Below, piece after piece: positions 33,416 to 52,227 of a DNA stretch of 55,116 nucleotides (positions are counted from its first letter, which is position 1; each line of letters opens with the position of its first letter). Source of the stretch: a virus. The notes under the pieces are model-generated. The model saw only the letters and a program-made list of their open reading frames with translations. It did no database searches and was not told where the DNA came from. A program made the position numbers and the translations under genes. Where the stretch lies: positions 1 to 55,116 of IMG/VR virus record IMGVR_UViG_3300017714_003588; one strand, 5' to 3'.

Positions 33416-34607
33416 AGAACTCCTCCAGTGAAGTATTAGATTGGTAATCTAATTTTTGTGCTTTATTATTTTGAAGTAAAAAATTTGTATCAAGCATTCT
33501 ATTATCTAGTCTTCCCTCAAGGAATGCTTTTACACCTCTTGCTGCATGTTCAGCTGTTGTGACAGGTACATTTTGACATATATGATTAAGTGACCTTTTA
33601 GGATTCAACAATTGAAAGTCTTCTGGCATTCTCATCATAGATAAAGCTTCTCTTACATATAAGTATCTATCTTCATCTGGGTGTGTAAGTGAACTTGGCA
33701 TATGACCTACAAAAGCACCAATGTAATCTTTAGGTATCTCAGTAGTTTTTCTCATTATATTACCACCTGACTTTAACTTTTCATACATACGTTCACATTT
33801 TTTTGATTCACCTTCATAACCATTCTTCTTCATCCATTCACCAACTACTTTATAGTTAGTATGTTTTTCAATATGGTCTAAAGGATTAGTAGATTTTTCT
33901 ATTTTATCTTGAAATTCTGAATGTGTAATACCACCTTCAAGTTCTTCTAAACAATACTTATAAAATGGATTGCCAGTTGGTTTTCTTTCATTTGTAAGTA
34001 TAGTACTCATTGGATCAGCAGGACATAACTTAACATTACGTATTGCATCCTCTATTTTTTCATGTGGTTCATGAATCCAATCTATAACAGGTACTTTATC
34101 ACCTTTCCAAAAGAAATAAAATGTTCTATCTCTTACTTGACTTAATCCATGCAATATAGATTTTGTTTGATAGATACTAAATGTATAACCATACTTATCA
34201 GCCATTTTTCTTAATTCAGCTACTACAGGTCTACCCATTTTAGATGCTAACCTCGGTGCATTCTCTCCCCACAAAACATCTGGTTGCATAGTACTTAAAA
34301 CATAATCAGTAGATTTTTTCATCCAATCATTATTATGATTCTCACTACTTGCTTGTGGTGACAATGATGATAAACCAGCACATGGACATACAGTATTTAC
34401 TACATTCACTTTACTAGGTTTAGGATTACCTTCATCTAAAATATGATATGGTACTTCATTATTATAATGGTTAAGCAAATGTTCTTCATTAGCTTGGAAA
34501 CCTGAATAACTCATAATATGTTCAGGTCTTTTACCAAAAACATTTTCCATTGCTATTGTTTCACCGCCTATAAGAGGCACAATACTTGCATAAGTAAAAT
34601 TATCCAA
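33408..34607 (-). CDS. DNA C5-cytosine methyltransferase family enzyme
   Basis: Dcm-family fold. IVPLIGGETIAMENV is motif I (SAM binding), VCPCAGLSS motif IV with the catalytic Cys (P-C), GENAPRL motif VI (E-N-V position), and QVRDRTFYFF motif VIII. NVPVTTAEHAARGVKAFL is motif X. Start placed at TTG 34607, preceded by ggagg and matching the family N-terminus; an ATG 30 bases upstream lacks a ribosome site. In a hydroxymethylcytosine context it could methylate residual cytosine or act in base hypermodification. C-terminus SLEEFFG. Confidence 0.85.
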   Translation of the reverse strand: MDNFTYASIVPLIGGETIAMENVFGKRPEHIMSYSGFQANEEHLLNHYNNEVPYHILDEGNPKPSKVNVVNTVCPCAGLSSLSPQASSENHNNDWMKKSTDYVLSTMQPDVLWGENAPRLASKMGRPVVAELRKMADKYGYTFSIYQTKSILHGLSQVRDRTFYFFWKGDKVPVIDWIHEPHEKIEDAIRNVKLCPADPMSTILTNERKPTGNPFYKYCLEELEGGITHSEFQDKIEKSTNPLDHIEKHTNYKVVGEWMKKNGYEGESKKCERMYEKLKSGGNIMRKTTEIPKDYIGAFVGHMPSSLTHPDEDRYLYVREALSMMRMPEDFQLLNPKRSLNHICQNVPVTTAEHAARGVKAFLEGRLDNRMLDTNFLLQNNKAQKLDYQSNTSLEEFFG

Positions 34608-35607
34608 AGAAACCCTCCAAACTTTGTGACATTGCATCTGATTCTACACCATTCCAATGTGGATAGTATTCTCTGCTTAAATGTATTGACTTAGGTTTTT
34701 CCATACAATCAAAATCTAATTCACCTTTACTATTTAGTAATTTATCAGTCCATCTAATAATACTATATTTGCTATCAATATAATCATTAAATTCATTTCT
34801 TGCATCAGTTCTTTCTTGCCATGTACCCCAGAATGGTTGTCCTTTATAATAACCTGATTGTGGTAATTTTCTAGATTCATTTTCAATAGGCAACAATTCA
34901 TATATCTTTGCATCTAATTGTTTTGCTTGTTCAATATATCTATCAGCTAATTCTTTTACATCAATATCCATTCTACAAATATGATGTCTTATATCAATAT
35001 TGCCAAAGTATAATTCTATTTCATTATAGTTTAAACCTTCATCTGGAATGTAATTAGCTATTCCCTCATTTAATATACCATTGAGTGTTTTAAATGGTAT
35101 ACTTTTTATAGTCCATCCAGGTCTATACATACAAATAGAATGTGAATCACCTATAACTAATTTGTTAGTTTGATTTGGATGTATTATAGTTTCAGCTTCT
35201 TTATGCATTCTTTCTAAATTATCTAAATCTACATTTGCCCATTCTGGTTGTGGGTCTTTTTTAGCTTTAGATAATTTATCTTTAATCCATTCATGGTAAG
35301 GTGGAAAATCAATAGCAATAGATTTTATCTTCCCTTTGAACTTAGAAAAGTTAACAGTGTTTTGTACATAAGGAAACCCATATACACCACCAAACATATT
35401 TAGTCCTCCACTAAAATCATTACCATGATATACCCACATTGTGTCATAATCATTATGTTCTTGTATTTCACCACCGTAGTTTACATCACACTGTCCATAA
35501 GCTTGTTTAATCATGTCACCATACATAACACCTTGAGCACCTCTATGAGATGCTATTCTTTTTGCCACAGGAATAAATGGGCAATTAAGTATATTACCAG
35601 CCTCCAT
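34600..35607 (-). CDS. SGNH-like conserved phage protein
   Basis: About 335 residues. KLVIGDSHSICMYRPGW resembles the 'G-D-S-H' block of SGNH/GDSL-type hydrolases, and ELYFGNIDIRHHICRMD is a second conserved block where the family keeps 'F-G-x-I-D-x-R-x-H'. Similar proteins occur in marine phages without known function. Start ATG 35607 (GTG three bases upstream is equivalent). Ends SLEGFFG, nearly the same as its downstream neighbour. It lies between the hypermodification-like helical protein and the cytosine methyltransferase. Confidence 0.6.
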   Translation of the reverse strand: MEAGNILNCPFIPVAKRIASHRGAQGVMYGDMIKQAYGQCDVNYGGEIQEHNDYDTMWVYHGNDFSGGLNMFGGVYGFPYVQNTVNFSKFKGKIKSIAIDFPPYHEWIKDKLSKAKKDPQPEWANVDLDNLERMHKEAETIIHPNQTNKLVIGDSHSICMYRPGWTIKSIPFKTLNGILNEGIANYIPDEGLNYNEIELYFGNIDIRHHICRMDIDVKELADRYIEQAKQLDAKIYELLPIENESRKLPQSGYYKGQPFWGTWQERTDARNEFNDYIDSKYSIIRWTDKLLNSKGELDFDCMEKPKSIHLSREYYPHWNGVESDAMSQSLEGFFG

Positions 35608-35716
35608 CACCCTTACCTTTATTTTTTTTCTTCCAATGTAATCTACCAGATAGTCCTAAAATACAAAAACTAAAACAGCCAAGAATAATTAATAATACAA
35701 AGAAAAAGTCTATCAT
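35594..35716 (-). CDS. 40-residue membrane microprotein
   Basis: Encodes MIDFFFVLLIILGCFSFCIL then a basic tail LHWKKKNKGKGDGGW. One membrane span, positive-inside tail. Overlaps the preceding gene (four bases) and the following one (14 bases). Confidence 0.55.
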   Translation of the reverse strand: MIDFFFVLLIILGCFSFCILGLSGRLHWKKKNKGKGDGGW

Positions 35717-36774
35717 ACAAAAGCCTCTAATGTTGGTTTATTCATTTCTTTGTTTAAATTTTCTGCTATGGTTTCAAAACTATCAAATGTTAATGGTACA
35801 ATTCTTTTTTGTTGTGCTCTTTCATTATCTTTTATACTAAGAAATACATTAAACTGACAAAAAGTAATTTCTGTACCAAAGGTAGTTAAATTGCCACCAC
35901 GCTCTAAATTGTTTCTATAATAATCATGTTCAGTATCATTTTTAAATTCAAAAAATTCATGTTGATTATCTCTTACAGCTAAAATATATTCTTCCATAAT
36001 ATCATTGTTGCTAAATTTTACATCTGGAAATACAAATTCTAAACCTCTTTTTGCACCTGGCCCTACTAAACAATACTCATCATCTTCATCAATACATGGT
36101 AATTCATCAGCTCTACTAAAATTGCATGGTGGATGATAAGAAAAATATGGACCAATACCTCTATGCTGTTTTAAGTGTTCACAAACAGTACCAAGTGTAG
36201 ATTGTTGGTCTGTCACAGTCCTAGATAAACCAAGTCTATCTAAATGACACATCCAGTCAATCATATCTGATAATTGAAACTTTTTCTCAGGGTTATTGTA
36301 TGTTCTTCTACAATAATTTCTTGCTGCAGTTTGTAATGATGTTTGTAGTTGTGTTGAACCCCACACAGCTAGTTTATGTTTATTTTCATTTAGATTTTTT
36401 TGTATGAAAAGTCTGTATATTGTTTCTTTTTCATATCTATCAAAGTCTATAATATTACTATAATCAGCTGAATTACTAGCAACTAATGTAAGTGTTGGCA
36501 TACCTACAAATTTAACTGCCATTGCATTTAGTATTTTGTTTCTAAGACTAATATCATCTCTACCAAACACATAGTTCTCTAACCAATGTACTTCAGCATG
36601 TTTAGACCTATTAGGATTCCAATACTTTACTTCTTCTCTCATTGCAACATGGCTGGGTGTATAATCATTTAGGTCACCAAAGTCTCTTAGGTATTCTCTT
36701 TTAAAGAACTCTTTGACCCACTCATTAAATATTAGAAAGTTATTTTCGTTTCTTTTTTCTAATAGTTTATTCAT
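35713..36774 (-). CDS. HMUDK-helical/aGPT-Pplase-like protein (DNA base hypermodification candidate)
   Basis: 353 residues. HRGIGPYFSYHPPCNFSR followed by EYCLVGPGAKRGLEFVF resembles the 'G-x-G-P-F-x-x-Y ... V-G-P-G-A-x-x-G' core of the helical, DNA-glycosylase-related family that includes alpha-glutamyl/putrescinyl-thymine pyrophosphorylases and the helical domain of hydroxymethyluracil DNA kinases. Those enzymes act on hydroxymethylated bases in phage DNA. Neighbouring myo-inositol-phosphate synthase, HAD phosphatase and C5-methyltransferase genes fit a modification operon. Assignment is by motif only. Confidence 0.55.
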   Translation of the reverse strand: MNKLLEKRNENNFLIFNEWVKEFFKREYLRDFGDLNDYTPSHVAMREEVKYWNPNRSKHAEVHWLENYVFGRDDISLRNKILNAMAVKFVGMPTLTLVASNSADYSNIIDFDRYEKETIYRLFIQKNLNENKHKLAVWGSTQLQTSLQTAARNYCRRTYNNPEKKFQLSDMIDWMCHLDRLGLSRTVTDQQSTLGTVCEHLKQHRGIGPYFSYHPPCNFSRADELPCIDEDDEYCLVGPGAKRGLEFVFPDVKFSNNDIMEEYILAVRDNQHEFFEFKNDTEHDYYRNNLERGGNLTTFGTEITFCQFNVFLSIKDNERAQQKRIVPLTFDSFETIAENLNKEMNKPTLEAFV

Positions 36775-37147
36775 AAGGATGTATACCGTCTTGTCTTACC
36801 AAGTGTACAATATGTAATTCAGGATGTTCTTTTTTAATTTCTTTGATTTGTATTTCATCATCTTCAAAATGCATACCAATATCATAACCTTGTTTCTTTA
36901 ACATTGTAATCATTTTTGCTTTGAACCTTCCACTAGCTTCACGGCCGTACTCAGGGTCATCTTTTCGCAAGTCATTCATAAATAACATATTATTTATGCC
37001 GCGGGCATGAAGCATTTTTTCAGTAGCTTCTCTTTCACTATGTACAGACCTACCTGTAATAATAATATCATTTGCACACGGCCGTACACCCGTGTACGTA
37101 TCACCAAAGTCTATAACACCATCAATATCAAAAGTATTAATTTTCAT
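36767..37147 (-). CDS. HAD-superfamily phosphatase-like protein
   Basis: 126 residues. FDIDGVIDFGDTY is HAD motif I, IIITGRSVHSEREAT motif II, FKAKMITMLKKQG carries the Lys, and HFEDDEIQIKEIK motif IV. No cap domain. It is overlapped by the inositol-phosphate synthase gene (11 bases), so it may dephosphorylate the product to inositol; alternatively it acts on a nucleotide. Overlaps the next gene by 8 bases. Confidence 0.75.
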   Translation of the reverse strand: MKINTFDIDGVIDFGDTYTGVRPCANDIIITGRSVHSEREATEKMLHARGINNMLFMNDLRKDDPEYGREASGRFKAKMITMLKKQGYDIGMHFEDDEIQIKEIKKEHPELHIVHLVRQDGIHPYE

Positions 37148-38435
37148 AATCAGTCTTTCCAGCTTGAAATGTATGTGGTAAGTCTTTTGCTTTAGGTCTA
37201 TTATCTTTTATTTGAGCTGTAGTCATTTCAGTAAATTTTCTTTCTGCTAAAGCATCACATTCAGCTTTTGCAACATCAGTTTTTAATTGTACTGGTGGAG
37301 ATTTCTGTGTCCATGCACTTGGACCTCTTAGATAACCAACAATACCCATTTCATTAGCAACTCTACAGAACCTAATGGCTGATACTACAACACCACCAGA
37401 GTTTGGACTATCTTGAACTGATAACCTAGCTGACATTTCATACCTTGCACCACCAAATCCATAAGCAACTATATCAAAGTTTGCTATCTTATTATCTGAT
37501 GGAATGTATTCACCACCTGGTTTTTGTTGTACTGTTAAAGATGGACCAGCAAATAGTGTCATACCTGCTGTTGTTTCATCCCTTACAATATTCTGACCTT
37601 TTAAAACATTTTCTTTAGAAATATGTTTAGATTTTAATCTATCTTGTTTAGCCATATTCAAAAAGTCTGTATTTGCTGTACGTCCCGTACGTATAGTTTC
37701 TTGACCTTGTGTAGAACCAGCTGCCATATTCATTTGAATGTGTTGTGTGACCTGTAAACCAGAATCAAGCATTGCACCTTGTAATACTTCTGACATACGA
37801 GATGCTCCCCAAGCTGAACGCATATCACTTCCAACAATTGTTAAACCTGCATCTATAAATCTTTGTTCAGTTGCCATAGCTTCTTCAGTAGATATTAATG
37901 TAGGTATACAATTAACAAAATTAACACCTGCATCTAATGCAACATCAATCCAATATTTTGTAGCATCTTCAGAACCCACTGGTAAATAATTAATAAGAAC
38001 ATCTACATCATGATACTTTATTAACTCTACAGTTCTTTCAAATGATTCTGCTGGTATTGCACCATTTACAAATGTGACTTCATCAGGATAATCATGCATG
38101 TGAGGTGCTATCCCATCTAGTTCTGGTGCTGAATAAACCATTGCTTTAGATTTTACACAACTAGAATTACTATCACCATTTGTATAAATTGAACTAACAT
38201 GATTCATTGAACAATTTGGTGCAGCTCTTAAAGCTTCAGCTAATGGTTTGTTTACTTTTCTTACATCAATATCAAATCCTAAGACAAATTCGATATCTTT
38301 AGTTCCATATCCACCGATATCTTCGTACATAAGACCGACTTTATCTTCTGGATTTTCGTTGTAGTATTGAATGCCTTCAACTAGGCTTTTGGCACAGGAA
38401 CCAATTCCAATGATTCCTACTTTTATTTTTGACAT
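37137..38435 (-). CDS. myo-inositol-1-phosphate synthase
   Basis: NAD-dependent cyclisation of glucose 6-phosphate to inositol phosphate. VGIIGIGSCAKSLVEGIQYY binds NAD; VLGFDIDVRKVNKPL, VGSDMRSAWGASRMSEVLQG (the 'G-D-D-x-K-S-x-x-G-A-T' region) and RLSVQDSPNSGGVVVSAIRF are hallmark MIPS segments. 432 residues, full length for the prokaryotic type. Its product could feed an inositol-based DNA modification, phosphatidylinositol or osmolyte synthesis. The leader contains a hairpin switch candidate. Confidence 0.88.
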   Translation of the reverse strand: MSKIKVGIIGIGSCAKSLVEGIQYYNENPEDKVGLMYEDIGGYGTKDIEFVLGFDIDVRKVNKPLAEALRAAPNCSMNHVSSIYTNGDSNSSCVKSKAMVYSAPELDGIAPHMHDYPDEVTFVNGAIPAESFERTVELIKYHDVDVLINYLPVGSEDATKYWIDVALDAGVNFVNCIPTLISTEEAMATEQRFIDAGLTIVGSDMRSAWGASRMSEVLQGAMLDSGLQVTQHIQMNMAAGSTQGQETIRTGRTANTDFLNMAKQDRLKSKHISKENVLKGQNIVRDETTAGMTLFAGPSLTVQQKPGGEYIPSDNKIANFDIVAYGFGGARYEMSARLSVQDSPNSGGVVVSAIRFCRVANEMGIVGYLRGPSAWTQKSPPVQLKTDVAKAECDALAERKFTEMTTAQIKDNRPKAKDLPHTFQAGKTDYEN

Positions 38436-39385: not shown

Positions 39386-39508
39386 TTGGCCCTCCTTACT
39401 TTCGTAATTAAACATATGTAATAAAAAATTTAACATACGAATAGATTATACCCATCACAACATTTTTTTTAAAATTCTCTAAGAGTGCAATATCAAATGG
39501 ATTTATGC

Positions 39509-39516
39509 TATAAATA
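39509..39516 (+). promoter_or_regulatory. T4-late-type promoter TATAAATA
   Basis: Exact match to the T4 late -10 element, ending four bases before the ATG at 39521. A T4-like start site (about six bases downstream) would fall at the start codon, giving a leaderless message. Confidence 0.6.
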
Positions 39517-39520
39517 CATT

Positions 39521-40864
39521 ATGATGAAATGGATGCTACTTCCTGTAGCCTTAACAATTTCCGCGATTGCAGCCTACTATTCAATATATGGATTGGCTAC
39601 TATCTTCGCGGCAGCAGTGATACCTATTATAGTAATGGGTGCTGCGTTAGAAGTAGGTAAACTAGTAAGTGTAGTTTATCTGCATCAGTATTGGACTGAA
39701 ACTAAATGGATGTTAAAAACCTATTTGATAATTGCAATAGGTCTATTAATGTTTATTACATCACTTGGTATATTTGGATTCTTATCAAAAGCTCATGTTG
39801 AGCAATCATCCATGTCAATAGAACAAATAGCCTTAGTTGACTCTATTGAAGAAAAAGTAATAAGGTCAGAATCTAAAATTGATAGGTGGGATGAAGAAAT
39901 TAAAAGATTGTTAACACCTAATAGTGAAAGAGTAGATATACAAATAGGAAATGAACAACAACAATTAGATAAGTTATATGATAGAATTGAAAAAGAAAAG
40001 AAAGCTGCCAATGATGCTTACAATCAAAAATTAAAAACAATTAATGAAACAGTCACAGGGTTTGGTTCAGGTGCTGCTAAAAGAGAACAAGTAGATGCTG
40101 CAAATGTTGAACTAAAAAAAGAATTAGCAAATATTGATAAGAAATATAAAGATGAAATAAAAGATTTACAAGACACTATCAAAGCATATAGAGTACAGTC
40201 AGAAACAAAGACAGAAAATATTGATGGAAAGATAGAAGAATTAGAAAGTAAAATAGATGCTGAACAGTTATTACAGGATGAACTAAAAACTGAACAACTT
40301 GTATATGAAAAAGAGTATAGAAAGTTAGAAGCAGAAGTTGGTCCGATTAAATATATTGCGGAACTTATCTATGGAGATGTTGATAGAGGACTTCTTGAAG
40401 ACGCTGTTAGATGGGTAATTATTATTTTAGTTATTGTATTCGATCCTTTAGCGGTAGCGTTATTAATAGCATGGAATGATATTATTAAAAGAGAGCGTCC
40501 AAAAAGACCAACTCCAATACCACCCTCTCCAGAACCAGAGCCAACTCTTAACGAGTTAGCAGAAAAAAAAACTGAAGAAGTAATTCAACCGATAGTTCCC
40601 GATGCTGAAGTTGATAGGGATTATGAGAAAGACCACTATTATAATTTAATAGGAACTAAAAAAGAGGTATCTCAAAAATCGCTTAAAGAGTTTATAGATG
40701 AAACTCCAGACTTTTATGCACAACTGGCTGATGAAATGGGCGGTCCAGTTGAATATGATAGCGATGGTGCTAAGATAGAAGTACCTGATGACGTTTTAGA
40801 ACAAATGCCAGATGGTACATATAGAAAAAAAGTAATCGGTCGTAGCCCAATAAAAACTGGATAA
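39521..40864 (+). CDS. multi-span membrane protein with central coiled coil (DUF4407-like)
   Basis: About 447 residues. Three N-terminal membrane segments (LLPVALTISAIAAYY, IFAAAVIPIIVMGAALEVG, LIIAIGLLMFITSLGIFGF) are followed by a long charged coiled coil (about residues 95-260), one more span (VIIILVIVFDPLAVALLIAW) and a Pro-rich acidic cytoplasmic tail. This plan matches a conserved marine phage family related to DUF4407. Start set at ATG 39521 downstream of TATAAATA. First gene of the plus-strand island carrying the curli-type operon. Confidence 0.7.
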   Translation: MMKWMLLPVALTISAIAAYYSIYGLATIFAAAVIPIIVMGAALEVGKLVSVVYLHQYWTETKWMLKTYLIIAIGLLMFITSLGIFGFLSKAHVEQSSMSIEQIALVDSIEEKVIRSESKIDRWDEEIKRLLTPNSERVDIQIGNEQQQLDKLYDRIEKEKKAANDAYNQKLKTINETVTGFGSGAAKREQVDAANVELKKELANIDKKYKDEIKDLQDTIKAYRVQSETKTENIDGKIEELESKIDAEQLLQDELKTEQLVYEKEYRKLEAEVGPIKYIAELIYGDVDRGLLEDAVRWVIIILVIVFDPLAVALLIAWNDIIKRERPKRPTPIPPSPEPEPTLNELAEKKTEEVIQPIVPDAEVDRDYEKDHYYNLIGTKKEVSQKSLKEFIDETPDFYAQLADEMGGPVEYDSDGAKIEVPDDVLEQMPDGTYRKKVIGRSPIKTG

Positions 40865-40865
40865 T

Positions 40866-41147
40866 ATGAAGGCTTTATTAGAACTGTTATTGGAATTGGG
40901 TCCCACAATTGCCGCCGCAATTGCAATGGGTATATTCATATACATTATTATAAAGTACATTCTCAGTTCAGTTGTTGGTCAAGCTAAAACATTACATTCA
41001 ATTATCACACAATTAGATAACCGTGTTGAAACCATGAACAATGATATGATTAAGTTAGATATACAAATTTCTCATGCTTTAAACTTAAAGCCTGATGAAG
41101 AACGTATCTCACGTGCGGACGGGAAGAAAGATGCAAGAAGAGATTAA
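40866..41147 (+). CDS. small membrane protein with coiled-coil tail, copy 1
   Basis: 93 residues: an N-terminal span (LGPTIAAAIAMGIFIYIIIK) then a helix with LDNRVETMNNDMIKLDIQI. The same plan, including 'L-D-x-R-x-x-x-x-x-N-D-x-I-x-L', occurs in the next gene, so they are tandem paralogues. Holin-like size and topology, but also consistent with a partner of the large coiled-coil membrane protein upstream. Confidence 0.6.
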   Translation: MKALLELLLELGPTIAAAIAMGIFIYIIIKYILSSVVGQAKTLHSIITQLDNRVETMNNDMIKLDIQISHALNLKPDEERISRADGKKDARRD

Positions 41148-41410
41148 TGAAACCAGAAATAATCATAGAAATAATTAACAATTATGGAGTACCCACTTTA
41201 GGTTTTATTGCTGCTGGTTATTTCATATATTGGATATACAATTATACAACTAAACAAATCAAACCATCACTAGGTCAGACTCATGTAGTTTTAATTAAAT
41301 TGTTAGATAGAATAAGAATGTTGGACAATGATATTATTAGATTACGTTCTAAATTAGATGCAGTGATTCAACTACAAGAAAAAGAAAAGCAACAGAAAAA
41401 TAATAAATAG
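41147..41410 (+). CDS. small membrane protein with coiled-coil tail, copy 2
   Basis: 87 residues: a span (GVPTLGFIAAGYFIYWIY) and a helix LLDRIRMLDNDIIRLRSKLD, ending in a basic Gln/Lys tail. Paralogous to the preceding gene; one-base overlap (TAATG type). Its last codons contain the late-promoter-like AATAAATA of csgF. Confidence 0.6.
   Translation: MKPEIIIEIINNYGVPTLGFIAAGYFIYWIYNYTTKQIKPSLGQTHVVLIKLLDRIRMLDNDIIRLRSKLDAVIQLQEKEKQQKNNK
41402..41409 (+). promoter_or_regulatory. Late-promoter-like AATAAATA before csgF
   Basis: Sequence taAATAAATAgactATG: the element ends exactly four bases before the csgF ATG, the same spacing as TATAAATA at 39509 and 53078. No ribosome site precedes csgF. 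Confidence 0.5.
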
Positions 41411-41413
41411 ACT

Positions 41414-41923
41414 ATGAAAGCACATCTTATAAACAGTGTGCTGCGAACTTGGGTTGTTATGTTATTTGCGGTGACGTTGGCAGCCCTCTCAACAATTTCC
41501 TCAGCTAGTGAGCTTAACTTTCAGTTTGGCAATCCAGCATTTTCAAAGCAAGGCTACTCGTCCCATGTCTTATCTATTGAGCAACTTAATTACTCACGTA
41601 AAAGAGATGTTGATAAAGACCAAAAGTCAGCCGATGCTTCTGCTCAGAGAGAAATTGATAACACAACAATTAATAAGTTCATTAAGAATGTTGAATCACG
41701 TATTTATGCTAATTTATCTAAACAATTAGTTGATAATATGTTTGGTACAAATTGTATCAACACATCTGAAATAACATGTGAAACTTCTGGTACTGCTTTA
41801 GTAGAAGGAGCCACAATATACTGGGTAAGAGATGATACAACAGAAACTATTAGTTTGACAGTCACAGATGAGACCGGAAATGTCACAACGATCACCGTGC
41901 CCATTGGAGACTTTCTATTCTAA
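41414..41923 (+). CDS. csgF: CsgF-like curli assembly protein
   Basis: Accessory subunit that caps the CsgG pore and couples secretion to fibre nucleation. A signal peptide of about 32 residues (VVMLFAVTLAALSTISSAS) precedes the mature N-terminus ELNFQFGNPAFSKQ, the CsgF signature that inserts into the CsgG channel. The C-terminal part GATIYWVRDDTTETISLTVT, then ETGNVTTITVP, matches the CsgF beta domain. 169 residues, a little longer than E. coli CsgF (138), with two Cys (NCINTSEITCE) likely disulphide-bonded. First gene of the operon csgF-csgG-curlin-fecR-curlin2-cyclase. Confidence 0.88.
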   Translation: MKAHLINSVLRTWVVMLFAVTLAALSTISSASELNFQFGNPAFSKQGYSSHVLSIEQLNYSRKRDVDKDQKSADASAQREIDNTTINKFIKNVESRIYANLSKQLVDNMFGTNCINTSEITCETSGTALVEGATIYWVRDDTTETISLTVTDETGNVTTITVPIGDFLF

Positions 41924-41942: not shown

Positions 41943-42764
41943 ATGAAGACACTCTTAGCATTAATATTGACTATAGTTATCACAGGATGCGTCAGCACAC
42001 CTGATAAAATAGACTATTATAAAGACCTGCCACCTCAGCAGCATGCTACACCCACATCAGAATTATTAGTAAACTTACCAGCATTAGATGGTGAAGTTAT
42101 TACTATTGCAGTGTATTCATTTTTAGACGAAACAGGACAAAGAAAACCTAGTGATAAATTTTCACAGCTATCAACAGCAATATCACAAGGTGTGGATGTG
42201 TGGGTAATACAAGCTTTAAAAGAAGCAGGAGATGGTACTTGGTTTAAGGTTGTTGAAAGAATGGGATTGGATAATGTAATAAAAGAAAGACAACTTATAA
42301 GAAGTACAAGAGAAGCATATGATGGAAATGATGCTAACAAGAATTCACTTAAACCTTTAATATTTGCAGGCTTAATATTAGAAGGTGGTGTTGTTGCTTA
42401 TGATACTAATATAGAATCAGGCGGCAACGGTGCAAGATACTTTGGCATTGGAATATCTGAAGAATATCGGGTAGACCAAGTCACTGTCGCTATGAGAGTA
42501 GTTGCTGTTCAGACTGGAGAAGTTTTACTTACCGTTTCAGGTACTAAAACTATAGCTAGTCATCGTTCAGGAACTGATGTTTTTAGATTCTTAGACATGG
42601 GAACTAAGGCTTTAGAAATAGAAAGCGGTGTTGCAATGAATGAGCCAGTAAATTACGCAATACGATCCGCAATAGAGTATTGCGTAATTGAAGTAATCAA
42701 ACAAGGAACAGACCAAGGTCTGTGGAAAATGAAGGAGGATAAAAACGATGAAACAATTCATTAA
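41943..42764 (+). CDS. csgG: CsgG-like curli secretion channel lipoprotein
   Basis: Outer-membrane nonameric pore of type VIII secretion. A lipoprotein signal with lipobox VITGC (C16) is followed by typical CsgG segments: ITIAVYSFLDETGQRKPSD, TAISQGVDVWVIQALKEAG, FKVVERMGLDNVIKERQLIR and VAVQTGEVLLTVSGTKTI. 273 residues matches E. coli CsgG (277). Hydrophobic/transmembrane hairpin regions around GISEEYRVDQVTVAM are present. No CsgE-like gate gene is visible. Expression from a phage could give fibre export or simply a large outer-membrane hole. Confidence 0.92.
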   Translation: MKTLLALILTIVITGCVSTPDKIDYYKDLPPQQHATPTSELLVNLPALDGEVITIAVYSFLDETGQRKPSDKFSQLSTAISQGVDVWVIQALKEAGDGTWFKVVERMGLDNVIKERQLIRSTREAYDGNDANKNSLKPLIFAGLILEGGVVAYDTNIESGGNGARYFGIGISEEYRVDQVTVAMRVVAVQTGEVLLTVSGTKTIASHRSGTDVFRFLDMGTKALEIESGVAMNEPVNYAIRSAIEYCVIEVIKQGTDQGLWKMKEDKNDETIH

Positions 42765-43434
42765 CCTTATATTATTATCTATCTTGTTTACAGGTACATT
42801 ATGGGCGAATGATATTTACGTCACACAAAGTGGTAATACACTTGACTTAGATATTACTCAAGATGGACAAAACAATACTGTTGGTAATTCTACCACATCA
42901 TCATCAGTTGTAGGTGCTACATCTACTATTGATATTGACCAGGTAGGAAACTCTAACGTCCTTACATTTGATGTTAACGGTGCTACATACACTGGAACAT
43001 TTAATGTCACGGGTGGTAGCAACAATATTGACTTTAACTGTGATAGCACTGGGAACAATTCCTCATGTGCAACAGTCACATCTAGCATAACAATGGTGGG
43101 TTCCAGTAACGATTTAGATATCGATATTGGTCAGACTGCTGATGCTGCAAACGGTGGAGTGACTATAACTGGAGCCAGTGGTTCTGATTCAAACGTTATA
43201 GCCGCTACTGTTGATGGTACATCTGCAATCTTAACATTATCTGTAAATGGAGATACAAATAACTGGTTGATTGATATAGATGGAAATGGAGATATTAATG
43301 GCCATACATTAATCCATTCTCATACCGGCGGTACAGCTGATGTAGATATAGTTCAAAGTGGTATTAATGATGCCATTATAAACTTGACTACTATTGGTAA
43401 TGGCCACGATATCGATATAAGTCAAACAGACTAA
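42748..43434 (+). CDS. Curlin-repeat amyloid-like secreted protein 1
   Basis: 228 residues with a 20-residue signal peptide (LILLSILFTGTLWA) and a mature chain of degenerate curlin repeats: YVTQSGNTLDLDITQDGQNN, IDIDQVGNSNVL, LDIDIGQTADA, VDIVQSGINDAI and a final HDIDISQTD. The alternating 'S/D-x-x-x-Q-x-G-x-x-N' pattern is that of CsgA/CsgB strands. No aromatic-rich domain. It overlaps csgG by 17 bases with aaggagg upstream. The substrate of the CsgG/CsgF exporter by context. Confidence 0.82.
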   Translation: MKQFINLILLSILFTGTLWANDIYVTQSGNTLDLDITQDGQNNTVGNSTTSSSVVGATSTIDIDQVGNSNVLTFDVNGATYTGTFNVTGGSNNIDFNCDSTGNNSSCATVTSSITMVGSSNDLDIDIGQTADAANGGVTITGASGSDSNVIAATVDGTSAILTLSVNGDTNNWLIDIDGNGDINGHTLIHSHTGGTADVDIVQSGINDAIINLTTIGNGHDIDISQTD

Positions 43435-44561
43435 TGCGTGCTCTAATAAGAGTTATTGCCTTTTTAATAGGTATTGTGTTTTTACTTTTTTATGGTAAAG
43501 AAGTATATGGACAATCTATAGGAGATGTAATTCTCCAAGAAGGCAATGCTGTTATAGAACAAAGTGGTGAAGAGAATATATCAATCGAAGGATTAAATGT
43601 ATTTTCTTATGATGTCGTTAAGACAGGGAATGGTAAAACAGCTATATCCTTTATTGACGACACTCGCGTAGATGTCACAGAACATTCAAAACTTATAATT
43701 GATGAGTTTGTATATGACCCAGCTAATAACATGGGTTCTCTCTCTATTAAAGCGACATTAGGTACCGTGCGTTATGCATCAGGGCAAATTGCTAAGAACT
43801 ATGCTCAAAATGTAAACATTGAAACACCAACTGCCACCATAGGTGTAAGAGGTACTGATTTTACTATGACTGTAGATGAGATTGGTGGTTCAACAATAAT
43901 CCTATTACCGTCATGCGATACAAAGGGTTATTGTTATGTAGGAGAAATTGAAGTTGAAACAGATGCTGGTTTTGTAATAATGAATCAAGCTTTTCAAGCA
44001 ACTGTAGTCACAACTGGTGAAGCAAAACCAATGAAGCCAGTTATTTTAGATTTAGATGAAAATATGATTGGCAATTTATTGATAATACAGAAACCTCAAG
44101 AAATTGTAGACCAACAAGAAAAAGCTGAATATAATGAAGTTGCAAATGCTTTAGATATAGACTTTTTAGAATTTAATGATTTAGAAGTAGATGAATTAGA
44201 AATAGACAATGATACCTGGACAACAGGTTTAGATATAGATTTTTTAGAACAAAATTTTTTAGTAGATGTATTAGCACAAATTAATAAAGAACTTGCTAAA
44301 GCTATGAGAAGTGAGTTTACAAAACAAGAAGAAGCTTCCATTGATGGTATAAGATTAGGTAAAGACCCTGAAACAGGTATTATAATTTTAGATGAAGACC
44401 CGGACTGGGTATATGCAAGAGAAGGTGCATCAACATATTTTGAATTAAGACTTGATAAAGAGTATGGTTATATTATAAGTTTTACACAAGAAGATTTTGA
44501 AGTATATGACTTTGAATTGGGAGGACAAGGAAATGAGATTCGCATTTATCAAAGTAATTAG
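43434..44561 (+). CDS. FecR-domain secreted protein
   Basis: 375 residues with a signal peptide/anchor (VIAFLIGIVFLLFYGKEVYG). The FecR domain spans about 30-190: VFSYDVVKTGNGKTAISFID, then SLSIKATLGTVRYASGQI and IETPTATIGVRGTDFTM, the classic 'T-P-x-A-x-I-G-V-R-G-T' motif. The C-terminal half is acidic with 'L-D-I-D-F-L' repeats. In bacteria, FecR proteins are often encoded next to CHASE2-cyclase genes, as here. Perhaps an envelope sensor or anchoring protein. One-base overlap with the curlin gene. Confidence 0.85.
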   Translation: MRALIRVIAFLIGIVFLLFYGKEVYGQSIGDVILQEGNAVIEQSGEENISIEGLNVFSYDVVKTGNGKTAISFIDDTRVDVTEHSKLIIDEFVYDPANNMGSLSIKATLGTVRYASGQIAKNYAQNVNIETPTATIGVRGTDFTMTVDEIGGSTIILLPSCDTKGYCYVGEIEVETDAGFVIMNQAFQATVVTTGEAKPMKPVILDLDENMIGNLLIIQKPQEIVDQQEKAEYNEVANALDIDFLEFNDLEVDELEIDNDTWTTGLDIDFLEQNFLVDVLAQINKELAKAMRSEFTKQEEASIDGIRLGKDPETGIIILDEDPDWVYAREGASTYFELRLDKEYGYIISFTQEDFEVYDFELGGQGNEIRIYQSN

Positions 44562-45849
44562 TGTTTTATTTCTTGTTCTTTTAATTAATGAAAAGGCAGA
44601 AGCTGGTTCATTAAACTATGAGGTGTTTGCTATTAGTCATTATGCACCTTATGTAGAAGCACCTTGTTATAATAACTATACATATCTGTCTACCTGTAAT
44701 AATACTAATCCAGCTTATGTAGGTACATCACAAGGAACTGGTACTATTGACAGTTTAAATTATAACTGGAATAGTGGAAACATAGTTCTTCATAATAATA
44801 ATTATGGTGGTAATCAGAGAATGGTAGTTATTACCGGTTATTGGCAACATCCAGGAACCACAGGTCAAACATCTACAGTATATTTTGCTGGTCGTAATGA
44901 TGATGGCCTTATTGTCAACATCAATAATACTAAAGTAATATCTGACTGGGCTCAACAAGGTCCAAGATATTGGAACTCTAATGGTTCATTTTCTGGTGTA
45001 GGTGGACAATGGTACCCAATACAAATTAACTGGTATGAATGGACAGGTTCTGCCAATATGGATATTCATTATAGTTTATCTAATTTAAGTTTAAACTCTA
45101 CAAGTGGTTGGTTAGATATGAATAGTGATCATTTTGCTTTAACTCTATCAGTTCTATCAGGCATTACATCATCACAACAAACAACAGTCACAAATACAAA
45201 GAATACTACAAGCACTACAAATAGTATCTATGTCACACAAAGTGGCAGTGGTATTGATTTAGATATTTTACAAGATGGTGATAATAATGCAGTGATAGGT
45301 ACTAACTTATCAGCCGCTAGTGTAATTACTGGTGATAATATAGATTTAGATATTGCGCAATATGGTAATAACAATATACTTGGTATTGACGTAAATGGTA
45401 ATTCAAATGACATAGATATATGGCAAAATCAAAATCAAAGAGCAATTGTGGATATTGTTGGTACATCTAATACTTTAAGTTTAAAACAAGAACATCTAAA
45501 CAATAATGGTGAACACTTTGCAGACATAGATATAGATGGTAATAATAACGTATTAAGTTTATGGCAAAAAGAAACTGGTGATAAAATACTCTTCATAGAT
45601 ATTGGCAATAGTAATAATGTCACAACATTGCAACAAGGTACAGGAAATCACTTTTTAGACATCAACTTAGGAGATAGTCATACAGTTAATGTAAATCAAG
45701 ATGGCTCAGGTAGTCACAATGCATACTTAAATTTAACTGGTAATAGTTCATCACTTACATTAACACAAGATAGTTCAACAGCACAGAATTATCACTTAGA
45801 CCAGAATTGTACTAACCCAAGTTGTTCAGCAACGGTGACACAGAACTAA
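44533..45849 (+). CDS. PA14-like domain plus curlin repeats (secreted)
   Basis: About 438 residues from ATG 44533 (gggaggacaagga upstream). Signal peptide (VISVLFLVLLINEKAEAG), then an aromatic N-terminal domain with VYFAGRNDDGLIVNINNTKV, the 'R-x-D-D-G' motif of PA14/GLEYA-type sugar-binding domains. From about residue 225 come curlin repeats beginning IYVTQSGSGIDLDILQDGDN, nearly the same as the first repeat of the 42748 protein. It looks like an adhesin tip or CsgB-like nucleator with a binding domain. Overlaps the FecR gene by 29 bases. Confidence 0.78.
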   Translation: MRFAFIKVISVLFLVLLINEKAEAGSLNYEVFAISHYAPYVEAPCYNNYTYLSTCNNTNPAYVGTSQGTGTIDSLNYNWNSGNIVLHNNNYGGNQRMVVITGYWQHPGTTGQTSTVYFAGRNDDGLIVNINNTKVISDWAQQGPRYWNSNGSFSGVGGQWYPIQINWYEWTGSANMDIHYSLSNLSLNSTSGWLDMNSDHFALTLSVLSGITSSQQTTVTNTKNTTSTTNSIYVTQSGSGIDLDILQDGDNNAVIGTNLSAASVITGDNIDLDIAQYGNNNILGIDVNGNSNDIDIWQNQNQRAIVDIVGTSNTLSLKQEHLNNNGEHFADIDIDGNNNVLSLWQKETGDKILFIDIGNSNNVTTLQQGTGNHFLDINLGDSHTVNVNQDGSGSHNAYLNLTGNSSSLTLTQDSSTAQNYHLDQNCTNPSCSATVTQN

Positions 45850-47699
45850 TGATAAAAATATTTACACATTGGACAATAGCATTTCTTACATTGGCAGCAA
45901 TTACGTTTTATGGTTGGCAAGACCCATATTTAAAAGAAGTATTAAGGTTGAAAGGTTTTGATACAATTATAAATTCACAAGAAAAAACTTATTCAAAAGA
46001 TATTGTTATTGTAGAGATAGATGAAAAAGCTATAGAAAAATATGGGCAATATCCTTTCAATAGAGAAATATATTCTGAACTTATAATAAAGTTAAGGCAA
46101 GCAAATGCTGGTATGATATTATTCCCTATGTTATTTTCTGAAAATGATAGACAAGGTGGAGACTTAATATTTTCTGAAGCATTACAATATGGTACAGTAA
46201 TAGCACAAGTTGGTACAAATCAAACTAATAAAAATGCGGTACCTAGAGGAATAGCTAAAATCGGTGACCCTTTACCTTTCTTATTTTCATGGGGCGGAAT
46301 GTTAGGTCCTATACCTGAACTAGAAGCAAATGGTGTTGGTGTTATTAATACAGCACCAGAAATAGATGGATTAGTTAGAAGATTACCTTTACTAATGAGA
46401 GTTGGTGATGATGTATTTCCAGCAATGGCAATTGAAACTATAAGAGCTATTACAGGTGACCCATCTTATCAAGTTAAAGCTGATGCAAATGGTATCATTG
46501 CTGTAAGAGTTCCTGGTTTTGCTACAATAAAAACTGATAGGAATGCTAGAATTTGGATTAATCATAATAAGACATTTGATAGTATCTCAATCGCAGATGA
46601 TGATTTAGAATTTGCATTAACAGAAGGTAAAACAGTAATTGTATCTTTAACTGCAGAAGGTTTGTCACCATTAGTTGCTACATCTGCAGGTGAACAATAT
46701 AATCATTATATTATTGCATCAAGTTTACAAACAATTATTGATGGTACTCATATTAAAAGAGATGATACTAGTTTTTTAATTGAAATGATTTTATGTGTTT
46801 TAATAGCAGCATTATTAATTGCAATTGTAAGAATAGCACCGTACTGGCTAATAGGTTTATTTACAATTGGTGTTTATATTGGTAGTGTTTACTTTGTAGT
46901 GTTTATGTTCAATCAATCACTTACGTTATATGATATTAGTTGGTTTATAATTACATTCACTATTGTTGCAATGCATTCTATATTCAATAGGTTCATATTA
47001 GAATTTAATTTAAAACAACAAATAAGAAAACAATTTGAAAAGTATTTAGACCCAAGGCAAGTAGCTATACTACAGAAAAATCCTGATAAAATAAAATTAG
47101 GTGGTGATAGAAAAGATATGAGTTTCTTATTTATGGACATTGTAGGATTTACACCTATTTCTGAACATTACAAAAATAATGATGACCCGGAAGGATTAGT
47201 CAAAGTAATAAATGATTACTTAGATAGAATGACTAAAATTGTTTTAAAGAATGGTGGTACAATAGACAAATATATGGGTGATTGTATTATGGCATTTTGG
47301 AATGCACCACTTGATTGTGACAATCATGCTGAAATGGCAGTAAAAACAGCTATTGAATGTGCACAAGAAACTGAAGAGATTAAAAAAGAATTTAAAGCAA
47401 AAGGTTTACCAGAAATTAATATAGGTAGTGGAGTAAATTCAGGTACTTGTATTGTTGGTAATATGGGTAGTGAAATGAGATTAGATTATTCTGTAATAGG
47501 TGATGCTGTTAACTTAGCAGCTAGACTAGAAGCACAAACAAGAAATTACAAAGATGACAACGGTAATGTAATACCATTATTATACTCACAATATACTAAA
47601 AGCTTATTAAGTAATATTGACTCTATCGAAGTGGATAAAATAAAAGTAAAAGGTAAAGAAGAGCTTATAACAATTTATAAGCCCTCCCTTATAAGTTAG
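45849..47699 (+). CDS. CHASE2-domain class III adenylate cyclase
   Basis: 616 residues: N-terminal span, periplasmic CHASE2 sensor (about 40-305, DIVIVEIDEKAIEKYGQYPF and GVGVINTAPEIDGLVRRLPL), three membrane segments (about 310-385), then a cyclase domain. Catalytic residues are intact: metal-binding D430 (MDIVGFT) and D478 (YMGDCIMAF), adenine-selecting K474 and D546, and transition-state N555/R559 (GDAVNLAARLE). It should make cAMP in response to an envelope signal. Start overlaps the curlin-2 stop (TAATG). Its stop overlaps the gp32 stop on the opposite strand. Confidence 0.9.
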   Translation: MIKIFTHWTIAFLTLAAITFYGWQDPYLKEVLRLKGFDTIINSQEKTYSKDIVIVEIDEKAIEKYGQYPFNREIYSELIIKLRQANAGMILFPMLFSENDRQGGDLIFSEALQYGTVIAQVGTNQTNKNAVPRGIAKIGDPLPFLFSWGGMLGPIPELEANGVGVINTAPEIDGLVRRLPLLMRVGDDVFPAMAIETIRAITGDPSYQVKADANGIIAVRVPGFATIKTDRNARIWINHNKTFDSISIADDDLEFALTEGKTVIVSLTAEGLSPLVATSAGEQYNHYIIASSLQTIIDGTHIKRDDTSFLIEMILCVLIAALLIAIVRIAPYWLIGLFTIGVYIGSVYFVVFMFNQSLTLYDISWFIITFTIVAMHSIFNRFILEFNLKQQIRKQFEKYLDPRQVAILQKNPDKIKLGGDRKDMSFLFMDIVGFTPISEHYKNNDDPEGLVKVINDYLDRMTKIVLKNGGTIDKYMGDCIMAFWNAPLDCDNHAEMAVKTAIECAQETEEIKKEFKAKGLPEINIGSGVNSGTCIVGNMGSEMRLDYSVIGDAVNLAARLEAQTRNYKDDNGNVIPLLYSQYTKSLLSNIDSIEVDKIKVKGKEELITIYKPSLIS

Positions 47700-49242: not shown

Positions 49243-49391
49243 GAATATGCAATTACCATCAGGCCTAAAAAAGTCAGACAGCAAGCAAAGAATAATTTAT
49301 AATTATTTGTGAGCCAAACAAAATACAAAGCTGCTCCTAACACAAAACTAGCAACACCCATTTGTACTAATACTGTAGTAAAATCAATCAT
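49239..49391 (-). CDS. 50-residue membrane microprotein
   Basis: Encodes MIDFTTVLVQMGVASFVLGA then ALYFVWLTNN and a second hydrophobic run FFACCLTFLGLMVIAYS: two short spans. ATGA overlaps with both alternative-oxidase and gp59 genes. Confidence 0.6.
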   Translation of the reverse strand: MIDFTTVLVQMGVASFVLGAALYFVWLTNNYKLFFACCLTFLGLMVIAYS

Positions 49392-49951
49392 AAACTGTAT
49401 TCATAGTTAATTTTTGCATGTTTCTCTTCATCAGCTCTTATCTTAATAATTATATCTTTTAATCTTGCGTTGTCATCTAAATTATAATACTGTTTAGCTA
49501 ATGGAGTTGCTGGTATATTTTCTGCTTGGCCAGAATCTACCATGTGTAAATATTGTGTGTAAGATTTTACTGCTTCTTCTTCAAAGTAATGTATCATACG
49601 ATGTGCAGTTTTTGGAAAGAATACAAATAAAAAAAAGTAAAAGACAAGAAAGATACCTTGTGCAAATAATACTAACCATCTTTCTAACCAAGTTGGTTTT
49701 GCAATATCAATAAAAATCATAAGATGCATTCTTTCATTTTCAGCTTCAGCTATCATTTCTCTTATTTTTGGTCCAAGACCTGCTTCCATCTTTCGAAGTG
49801 ACTTCATATGTAGCCATACACCTGCTACTATACCAGGAACTCCAGCAATAGTCTCTAATACCACAGCTCTATGACCGTATCTTTTCGCAAAAAAAGTATC
49901 AGCTATAAACCTAAAAAATTTAGTCATTGTTTTTGCAAACCAATCAGACAA
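49388..49951 (-). CDS. Alternative (ubiquinol) oxidase
   Basis: Membrane-bound di-iron oxidase that passes electrons from quinol to oxygen without proton pumping. All six ligands are visible: E33 (VVLETIAGVPG), E73 and H76 (AENERMHLM), a Glu in FEEEAVKSY (about 125), E175 and H178 (RADEEKHAKIN). One hydrophobic helix pair (LVLFAQGIFLVFYFFLFVFF) anchors it. 187 residues, a compact phage form similar in idea to cyanophage PTOX. It may relieve host redox pressure or support nucleotide synthesis during infection. Confidence 0.92.
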   Translation of the reverse strand: MSDWFAKTMTKFFRFIADTFFAKRYGHRAVVLETIAGVPGIVAGVWLHMKSLRKMEAGLGPKIREMIAEAENERMHLMIFIDIAKPTWLERWLVLFAQGIFLVFYFFLFVFFPKTAHRMIHYFEEEAVKSYTQYLHMVDSGQAENIPATPLAKQYYNLDDNARLKDIIIKIRADEEKHAKINYEYSL

Positions 49952-50455: not shown

Positions 50456-51113
50456 ATTGACTCTCCTGTCTTTTTGATTGATATAAACTGATTCTTGTCT
50501 TAAGTCGTTCAACCCAATACTTATTGTTTCTAGCTGATTGTGTGAACTCTTGGATTTTCCCTTCATTAGTTGTGATAATGATTTTTGTATTTGCTGGAAG
50601 TATGTTTGTACGTTCATAAAATGCATAGAAATAGAAGGCTGCTTGTATAAAGTAATCTTCTATCCATTCCTCTTTTTTTGTTTTTCTACTAGTTTTAAAA
50701 TCAATGACACTGATGTCTCCATCCATTTCAGCTATACAATCCACAGTACCTGCAACACCTAGGTAAGTACTATATAATGTAGTTTCTAAACACTTAACAC
50801 TACGTATCCTATCAAGGGTGGGACGTACAGCTCTAAATAAAAGGCTAGGCTCGAAGTCTTCATTAAGTAAATATCTTTCACATTCCTTATGAAACTTAGT
50901 CCCGTGTGTAGTAGCTTGCTTACTAATTCTATTTGCTTCTTTTTCACCAACTCTTTTTTTCCACTCCATTAACTGGGTCATGTCTTTTGTTTGACCAAGT
51001 ACTGTTGTTATTGATGGAAACCTACTCCCATCTTTATCTTCGTAATATCTTTCGTTTGGGTTCGTAACTTGTTTGAGTTTTGGAACCGTAATAAAATCAT
51101 GTTTGAACTTCAT
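50448..51113 (-). CDS. PD-(D/E)XK nuclease (RecB/Cas4-like)
   Basis: 221 residues. FPSITTVLGQTKDMTQLMEW at the N-terminus and HGTKFHKECERYL (the QxxxY-like helix) precede the catalytic block VAGTVDCIAEMDGDISVIDF followed by KTSRK ('G-x-x-D ... D-F-K-T'), then a C-terminal IQAAFYFYAFYE helix. Typical phage recombination exonuclease/Cas4-like domain without visible Fe-S cysteines. Overlaps ClpX by 17 bases. Confidence 0.85.
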   Translation of the reverse strand: MKFKHDFITVPKLKQVTNPNERYYEDKDGSRFPSITTVLGQTKDMTQLMEWKKRVGEKEANRISKQATTHGTKFHKECERYLLNEDFEPSLLFRAVRPTLDRIRSVKCLETTLYSTYLGVAGTVDCIAEMDGDISVIDFKTSRKTKKEEWIEDYFIQAAFYFYAFYERTNILPANTKIIITTNEGKIQEFTQSARNNKYWVERLKTRISLYQSKRQESQYG

Positions 51114-52227
51114 CTAATAATTTTTCCACATCTTTTTCGTCTAAAATAGCTGATTCTAAATTAAACATATAGTCTAATAATACTGTCTCAACCAATGATT
51201 TTAGACCTCTTGCACCCACTCCCTTTTTGAGAGCACGTTGAGCAATAATCTTTAAACCTTTATTTGATATTTTAAGTTCTTGACCTGAATGTTTGAACAA
51301 TCTTGTGTACTGATTTATTACATTGTTCTTTACTTTACATAATATTTCTATTAAATTATCTTCAGTTAATTCTTGTAAAGGTGCTATTGTAGGTATACGT
51401 CCTAAAATCTCTGGTATAAATCCATACTTTTCTAAATCTTCTGGTTGCACATGGTTAAAGATATTAGGTTCTTCTTCTATGTCTCCTGCAAATTTGGCAC
51501 CAAAACCAATACCTCTTTTACCTAAGTTAAGTCGATTACCAATGATTTCATCCAAACCTGTAAATGCACCACCAACAATAAACATTATGTTTGATGTATC
51601 TACAACAAATCTTACCTTAGATAACCCTTGTTGCCTTTCCATTTCAATTTCAGTGCCTTCAATTAGTTTTAGTAAAGCTTGTTGGACAGCTTCTCCACCT
51701 ACATCTTTTCTACCTTGGACACCATCAGTCTTGCTACATATCTTATCAAACTCATCTATGAATACTATGCCTGTAGCTGCAGCATCAAAATTACCTCTAG
51801 CATTTTGAAACAATCCATCAATTACTGTCTCTACATCTTTGCCCACATATCCAGATGCAGTCATATTGTTTGCATCAGCTATGTAATAAGGTACCTTCAT
51901 CATTTCAGCTAATTTCTTTACAAGGTACGTTTTACCAGAACCCGTAGGACCTAAAAGCATAACATTAGTTTTATCAATTTTCTTTGTCTCATCAAATTCA
52001 TCTTCTTTGTATATCATTAGTCTTTTATAATGATTATGAGCTCCAACAGCTAAAACTTTCTTAGCTCTTTCTTGACTTATAACATAGTCATCTAAATAAT
52101 TGTAAATTTCTTTAGGTGTAGGTAATTCGAATTTAAGTTCTGTTTTTACAGTATATAGACCAAGCTTTTCTCTTACTTTGTCTATATTGTTTAGTAAAAA
52201 TTCTCTATCTTCACGTGCTAGTGTCAT
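51097..52227 (-). CDS. ClpX-like AAA+ unfoldase lacking the zinc-binding domain
   Basis: 376 residues. Walker A GPTGSGKT (93-100), pore loop ASGYVGKDVE, Walker B IVFIDEFDKI, sensor regions FVVGGAFTGLDEI and GVGARGLKSLVE. The ClpP-docking IGF loop is kept (GIGFGAKF). The N-terminal zinc domain that recruits adaptors in host ClpX is absent; instead about 35 non-homologous residues. It could redirect host ClpP to different substrates. Overlaps IscU by four bases. Confidence 0.92.
   Translation of the reverse strand: MTLAREDREFLLNNIDKVREKLGLYTVKTELKFELPTPKEIYNYLDDYVISQERAKKVLAVGAHNHYKRLMIYKEDEFDETKKIDKTNVMLLGPTGSGKTYLVKKLAEMMKVPYYIADANNMTASGYVGKDVETVIDGLFQNARGNFDAAATGIVFIDEFDKICSKTDGVQGRKDVGGEAVQQALLKLIEGTEIEMERQQGLSKVRFVVDTSNIMFIVGGAFTGLDEIIGNRLNLGKRGIGFGAKFAGDIEEEPNIFNHVQPEDLEKYGFIPEILGRIPTIAPLQELTEDNLIEILCKVKNNVINQYTRLFKHSGQELKISNKGLKIIAQRALKKGVGARGLKSLVETVLLDYMFNLESAILDEKDVEKLLDEVQT

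Follow-up and report, generated by a model that had tools for sequence, protein, structure and literature searches.

The window, the 55,116-nucleotide stretch (positions 1 to 55,116) of IMG/VR virus record IMGVR_UViG_3300017714_003588 that was analysed in full, carries a gene for a CHASE2-class III adenylate cyclase at the end of a curli-type run of genes in a marine T4-like phage. The cyclase open reading frame (ORF; 45849..47699, + strand) begins with an ATG at 45849 that shares one base with the stop of the preceding gene, ends with a stop at 47697-47699, and encodes an intact protein of 616 amino acids (aa). Pfam CHASE2 (PF05226) matched residues 16-321 (45894..46811, +; E 9e-35, 120.8 bits versus a curated cut-off of 26.3), and Guanylate_cyc (PF00211) matched residues 423-608 (47115..47672, +; E 3e-18, 66.6 bits versus 21.9). 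In a PHROGs search, the protein was assigned to PHROG 35576 (E 5e-264). A first-pass annotation, made from the letters of the window, had proposed an intact CHASE2 class III cyclase in a phage, as the last gene of a curli-type operon. Both points were confirmed: the ORF is complete, both domains exceed their curated cut-offs, the catalytic residues are there, and the genes run in the order CsgF-CsgG-curlin-FecR-curlin-cyclase.

In the alignment with solved class III cyclases, including Pseudomonas aeruginosa CyaB (3r5g) and OaPAC (5x4t), the residues D430, K474, D478, N555 and R559 lined up at the places that had been given for them. The domain thus carries the two metal aspartates (D430/D478) and the transition-state Asn and Arg (N555/R559) of a class III nucleotidyl cyclase. 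One site had to be reassigned. D546, which had been named as an adenine-specificity residue, is at the wrong position and was rejected. The site seven residues ahead of the catalytic Asn is S548 in the window protein and T in both CyaB and OaPAC; position 548 is S or T in 79/79 bacterial relatives of sufficient length (one of 80 loci was dropped for length), while position 546 is D in only 41 of the 79 and A, N, S, T or E in the other 38. Since the solved structures have T there and the relatives have S or T throughout, S548 was taken as the second purine position. Class IIIb cyclases are defined by Thr or Ser, not Asp, beside the Lys of the purine site, and K474/S548 is such a pair.

In the available part of PMC4215837, T at the second purine position is described for some adenylate cyclases, and S there is described also for guanylate cyclases, which could suggest that the product is mainly cyclic GMP (cGMP). 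This is very unlikely, as K474 is invariant where guanylate cyclases have Glu (PMC4215837), and the close solved relative CyaB likewise has K with T. These results support the view that the enzyme is an apparently working ATP-type class III cyclase (K474 with S548), which should make cyclic AMP (cAMP) under predicted periplasmic sensing.

The conservation of these sites was evaluated in 151 distinct phage cyclase ORFs, obtained from 240 fetched viral loci and the window, of which ORFs that are cut short do not reach every site. All readable sequences retained D430 (135/135), K474 (134/134), D478 (134/134) and R559 (133/133). The cyclase-seeded sample is possibly biased, the K474-D478 motif having served as one search pattern, and a neighbour-seeded subset (n = 72) was used as a control. 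It agreed with the full set (D430 57/57, K474 56/56, D478 56/56 and R559 55/55 readable). The ratio of nonsynonymous to synonymous substitution rates (dN/dS) in 552 common pairs had medians of 0.067 for the cyclase domain versus 0.200 for CHASE2, with the cyclase lower in 527/552. Since dS was nearly saturated in many of these pairs, 44 disjoint closest pairs were also used, and the medians were 0.055 versus 0.102, with the cyclase lower in 35/44. These ratios indicate strong purifying selection on the catalytic domain. A catalytically dead protein, retained as a structural receptor, is extremely improbable: the catalytic residues are invariant, dN/dS is lowest in the catalytic domain, and nothing in favour of this idea was found for the window protein. 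A dead cyclase was rejected.

An AlphaFold model of the protein, based on an alignment of 19 sequences, had a mean predicted local distance difference test score (pLDDT) of 87 and a predicted template modelling score (pTM) of 0.66. A helix at residues 10-23 precedes CHASE2 in the model, and long helices at 308-329, 332-357 and 364-396 lie between CHASE2 and the cyclase domain. These helices are probably membrane helices and, judged from the helix pattern only, CHASE2 would lie on the periplasmic side. As in CHASE2 receptors, CHASE2 stands N-terminal to the predicted transmembrane (TM) helices and the output domain. The catalytic half of the model matched P. aeruginosa CyaB 3r5g (TMt 0.86, 36% identity) in a structure comparison, and OaPAC and CyaC also matched.

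The module in front of the cyclase begins with two small one-TM proteins of the same family (PHROG 18771), with 93 aa (40866..41147, +) and 87 aa (41147..41410, +). These are followed by CsgF (41414..41923, +; Pfam CsgF E 1e-11), the outer-membrane pore CsgG (41943..42764, +; Pfam CsgG E 5e-54; NCBIfam CsgG E 1.6e-58, under the equivalog cut-off), a first curlin-like protein of 228 aa (42748..43434, +; Curlin_rpt E 0.026, a weak match), a FecR-domain protein of 375 aa with a signal-peptide-like start (43434..44561, +; FecR E 2e-8), and a second curlin-repeat protein (44533..45849, +; start inferred; Curlin_rpt E 2.8e-6) with a signal-peptide-like start and a PA14-like stretch (E 0.0018, below the cut-off). 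The first curlin-like protein matches, at 72.8% identity, a protein of pelagiphage HTVC008M that is annotated as curlin minor subunit. FecR had been placed next to the cyclase in the first-pass annotation; the two genes do belong to the same module, but the second curlin-repeat gene intervenes. Upstream of the module lies a 459-aa membrane/coiled-coil protein of no confident family (39485..40864, +), which 25 of the 241 loci share, the window among them, and which had no counterpart in the HTVC008M pieces fetched. An Rfam scan of the window gave 0 families at gathering score.

CsgF, CsgG, curlin repeat, FecR and cyclase, in this order, constitute the gene set of the type VIII secretion system (T8SS) module described in PMC9599517. 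In the available part of that paper, phage curli expression is proposed to be controlled by the cyclase together with a histidine kinase and a FecR regulator that depends on iron, by comparison with the cAMP control of csgD in gammaproteobacteria, and the same gene set, synteny, metatranscriptome expression and alphaproteobacterial affinity are reported. We consider such curli regulation unlikely. The window FecR protein has a signal-peptide-like start and matched the FecR domain only in Pfam, with no anti-sigma N-terminal domain, unlike inner-membrane FecR anti-sigma proteins; FecR also matched in 17/17 of its relatives, one of them with a stray AraC_N match. No sigma gene was found within the module, and the features of a FecI/FecR anti-sigma pair were thus lacking there. 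FecR as an iron-responsive anti-sigma factor was rejected on the FecR domain standing alone and the signal-peptide-like N-terminus. No histidine kinase was found ahead of the module: the 93- and 87-aa genes correspond to the kinase of the paper by position only, and a kinase domain matched in 0/30 members of their family, so that these small proteins were rejected as histidine kinases.

A different function for the same genes is suggested by PMC9004378, the available part of which argues for CsgGF in lysis timing. CsgG/CsgF would then be a gated hole, the cyclase would report the state of the pore, and the two small TM proteins would be holin-like. Small TM/coiled-coil proteins do lie directly ahead of CsgF, but the small TM proteins had no Pfam holin match, and two curlin-repeat genes in the window (the second over the Pfam cut-off) and two annotated in Methylophilales phage Melnitz point to the secretion of fibres and not to a pore alone. 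A lysis timer is therefore distinctly unlikely.

The module is syntenic among related phages. The order CsgF-CsgG-FecR-cyclase on one strand was kept in 84 of 91 distinct loci that have all four genes. The FecR-seeded search yielded 80 loci (60 distinct), and among the 38 with 4 kb of room the cyclase followed downstream in 32, stood in another place in 5 (as an 81-aa piece in one case) and was absent in 1. From the CsgG-seeded search (80 loci, 57 distinct), 18 had 7 kb of room, with the cyclase downstream in 17 and elsewhere in 1. A single-stranded DNA-binding protein (SSB) gene was upstream on the same strand in 52/58 distinct loci with both, and downstream on the opposite strand, as in the window, in 6.

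The same module, with CsgF, CsgG, curlin, FecR, curlin and cyclase in the same order, is found in HTVC008M (KC465899), whose cyclase is 64.6% identical to that of the window over 99%. It is also found in Melnitz (MZ577097; PMC9004378), whose host is OM43 and whose cyclase gene is longer (2052 bases; 47.6% identical). Cyclase relatives were present in hundreds of IMG/VR stretches. Thus, while the first-pass annotation had regarded a phage cyclase of this kind as unusual, it is not so among related phages: isolates carry it, and the gene set is already in PMC9599517. In the available text of PMC9599517 (2022), the T8SS modules of both pelagimyophages and pelagipodophages are said to contain FecR and cyclase, which bacterial T8SS operons are stated to lack, and the word 'CHASE2' is absent; the curli operon is reported for pelagimyophages in PMC7029224 and for Melnitz in PMC9004378. 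The latter lacks the word 'cyclase' in the part available and states that csgA/B are lacking, contrary to the Melnitz record, which annotates two curlin-repeat proteins.

To place the window copy, 56 window proteins were compared with two fetched pieces of HTVC008M, and 32 had no match. Seven module proteins were 48.9-72.8% identical to HTVC008M, as against 21-45% for 17 other matched window proteins, and the SSB adjoining the module was 42% identical. The primase-helicase and SSB were about equally close to cyanophages and Melnitz as to HTVC008M. The window phage thus represents a different T4-like lineage from HTVC008M, with the module reversed beside the SSB gene and the extra 459-aa gene upstream. 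The contrast between module (49-73%) and other proteins (21-45%) suggests that distant T4-like lineages have exchanged the module, probably as a unit. Cross-family transfer of the T8SS module, described in the available part of PMC9599517, is in line with such exchange.

The first-pass annotation had also suggested that the FecR-cyclase pairing is familiar from bacteria and that a bacterial module had been transferred. The best 80 of 580 bacterial stretches, many of whose loci are cut by contig ends, held cyclases that were 27-35% identical to that of the window, mostly from Alphaproteobacteria. In 22/80 of these loci a FecR ORF lay no more than 5 kb from the cyclase, and in a further 3 the distance was 5 to 10 kb; FecR-CHASE2 cyclase clusters are also described for Campylobacterota in the available part of PMC9239204, so that the pairing is indeed bacterial. 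These bacterial clusters share CHASE2, the K + S/T site, N, R and the FecR neighbour with the window, but differ in their low identity, in the absence of curli genes from 80/80 loci and in ORFs that are mostly longer. CsgG, CsgF or curlin was found beside 0/80 of these cyclases, and CsgG gave no match in ten genomes of the cyclase relatives. Conversely, in a small curli sample (385 genomes, 13 of which matched CsgG at E 1e-10, with 5 strong hits), the 5 strong alphaproteobacterial CsgG loci held CsgF and curlin-type ORFs, with the curli models matching in all 5 as a working control, and neither FecR nor cyclase was found in about 10 kb around any of them (0/5); the other module genes were likewise missing from L341, a sixth locus with a weak CsgG match. 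Lifting of the whole module in one piece from one bacterial operon was rejected in this sample (0/80 and 0/5 co-located), and the transfer in its simple form was not upheld, curli and FecR-cyclase genes being apart in the sampled bacteria. The best reading is that two bacterial modules, curli and FecR-CHASE2 cyclase, came together in phages or in a bacterium outside the sample, and another phage is the most likely source of the window copy.

A phylogeny had been proposed as a way to the bacterial donor. In a quick tree of full proteins, 58 phage and 79 bacterial proteins split on one branch with support 100, which agrees with a single origin but does not prove it. The bacterial label requires 4 changes in the cyclase-domain tree; therefore, the catalytic domain alone does not show one origin.

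Taken together, the window protein is probably a membrane receptor that senses in the periplasm, makes cAMP and belongs to a mobile envelope module of phages, with a relay via FecR and a target that is not CRP-type. The cyclase would act as a homodimer whose CHASE2 domains face the periplasm, and the exported FecR-domain protein would inform it of the condition of the envelope or the CsgG/CsgF-curlin apparatus; cAMP would then be produced in the host cytoplasm during infection, and it appears not to act via a CRP-type receptor in SAR11 hosts. The module would travel as a unit among distantly related T4-like phages. The relay is likened by analogy to that of the Sinorhizobium meliloti CHASE2 cyclases CyaD1/CyaD2/CyaK, which, according to the available part of PMC13001267, raise cAMP upon a protein sensed through the outer-membrane barrel NsrA. 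The S. meliloti system differs in having a CRP-family receptor, Clr, and none was found in the phages or the SAR11 order searched.

Several observations weigh against this receptor reading. The core genes of the window were not close to any isolate, at similar distance to cyanophages, Melnitz and HTVC008M, which leaves the link to a host less firm. PF00027 (cyclic nucleotide monophosphate binding) was found in 0/9 related phage records (105-152 kb long, with HTVC008M among them) and in 6/97 genomes of the SAR11 order, in 5 of these within an 870-aa frame. No CRP-like receptor was seen in the 97 genomes. Among the enzymes themselves, 18/133 readable phage cyclases are of a D548 + S555 type, in which S replaces the transition-state Asn.

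The SAR11 order denotes here the order of G217 with its 97 genomes, whose completeness is not stated; G217 and G307 match all of four SAR11 16S probes without mismatch, and this is the basis for the name. E. coli and Caulobacter, as controls, matched PF00027 in the same searches. One 870-aa protein (L352, from G456) appears to combine a cyclic nucleotide-binding-like domain with acyltransferase-like and GDSL-like parts and is a possible, if unusual, binder of cyclic nucleotides; no DNA-binding domain was evident by eye in the one such protein that was read, which is not a transcription factor. A CRP-type response in SAR11 hosts of the module is not supported. The suggestion that the phage steers host metabolism through cAMP thus found no receptor in the SAR11-order genomes or the nine related phage records, and the same result speaks against the published curli regulation.

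The class III cyclase domain was also found in 0/97 SAR11-order genomes. Together with the scarcity of PF00027 (with its acyltransferase-like example) and its absence from the nine phages, this would fit a messenger without an intracellular CRP-type receptor: cAMP would exit as a cue, or the cyclase would drain ATP late in infection. Such a role is improbable, as the conserved CHASE2 sensor points to regulated synthesis, a receptor of another fold could escape these searches, and class III cyclases are slow enzymes.

The D548/S555 type formed a single clade with support 100 in the cyclase-domain tree, and in the CHASE2-domain tree this label requires 8 changes, at least 6 of which are forced by starred branches. 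These are quick trees with Shimodaira-Hasegawa-like approximate likelihood ratio test (SH-aLRT) support only, of 137 rows after near-identical window-type proteins had been thinned from 114 to 40. The type sits on a branch of length 1.52 in the cyclase-domain tree, and with such long branches its exact sister group is unsure; the contrast between one cyclase clade and at least 6 forced CHASE2 changes is independent of this uncertainty. A single cyclase clade under scattered CHASE2 domains suggests that a second cassette was joined to several CHASE2 sensors, or that sensors were swapped under the cassette. Sensor and cyclase chemistry may thus evolve separately, the cyclase half apparently being swapped under unrelated CHASE2 sensors. 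The loss of Asn need not kill the enzyme, because Ma1120 is active with Ala at this position and Asp at the purine site, as given in the available part of PMC4215837. The type was found in 0/79 nearest bacterial relatives, which had been picked by likeness to the window protein. Its loci are L098, L110, L150, L155, L171, L192-L194, L196, L197, L221-L224, L232, L235, L237 and L241.

These observations expose a gap: phages of SAR11-type hosts have an intact, selected receptor that should make cAMP, and the searches found a known cAMP receptor neither in the host nor in the phage. What phage cAMP does is thus a sharp and testable question, for which HTVC008M on HTCC1062 and Melnitz on OM43 are available as isolates, and the cassette swap informs how receptor cyclases get rewired. 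It is conceivable, if doubtful, that the phage supplies a full second-messenger input to hosts whose lineage lacks both class III cyclase and CRP-type receptor, the messenger acting via an undescribed receptor in the host, the phage or a neighbouring cell, and that two cassettes (K/S/N and K/D/S) are exchanged under the same envelope sensors, so that the input stays while the output chemistry changes. While the gene set is already known, what is new here is the cassette swap and the finding of no cAMP receptor, with the module movement and the separate bacterial loci as further additions; no description of a cassette swap under CHASE2 or of a missing cAMP receptor was found in the available parts of the literature searched.

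Other genes of the window lie outside the module. An intact alternative oxidase (AOX; 49388-49951, - strand; PF01786 E 1.3e-64; TTG start) had a relative at E 1e-5 in only 1 of 50,697 phage records, namely Phage C48C1, at 52% identity and annotated as hypothetical. A myo-inositol-1-phosphate synthase-like protein adjoins a protein with a 5-hydroxymethyldeoxyuridine (5-hmdU) DNA kinase helical domain (35713-38435, -, and 33408-34637, -), with a C5 cytosine methylase nearby, and these genes possibly form a DNA modification cluster. The window also encodes a 3-deoxy-D-arabino-heptulosonate 7-phosphate (DAHP) synthetase I family protein, an enzyme of the aromatic amino acid pathway (28295-29077, -; PF00793 E 4e-49), and a phage-encoded ClpX-like AAA+ protein (51097-52227, -; AAA_2 E 3e-25, ClpB_D2-small).

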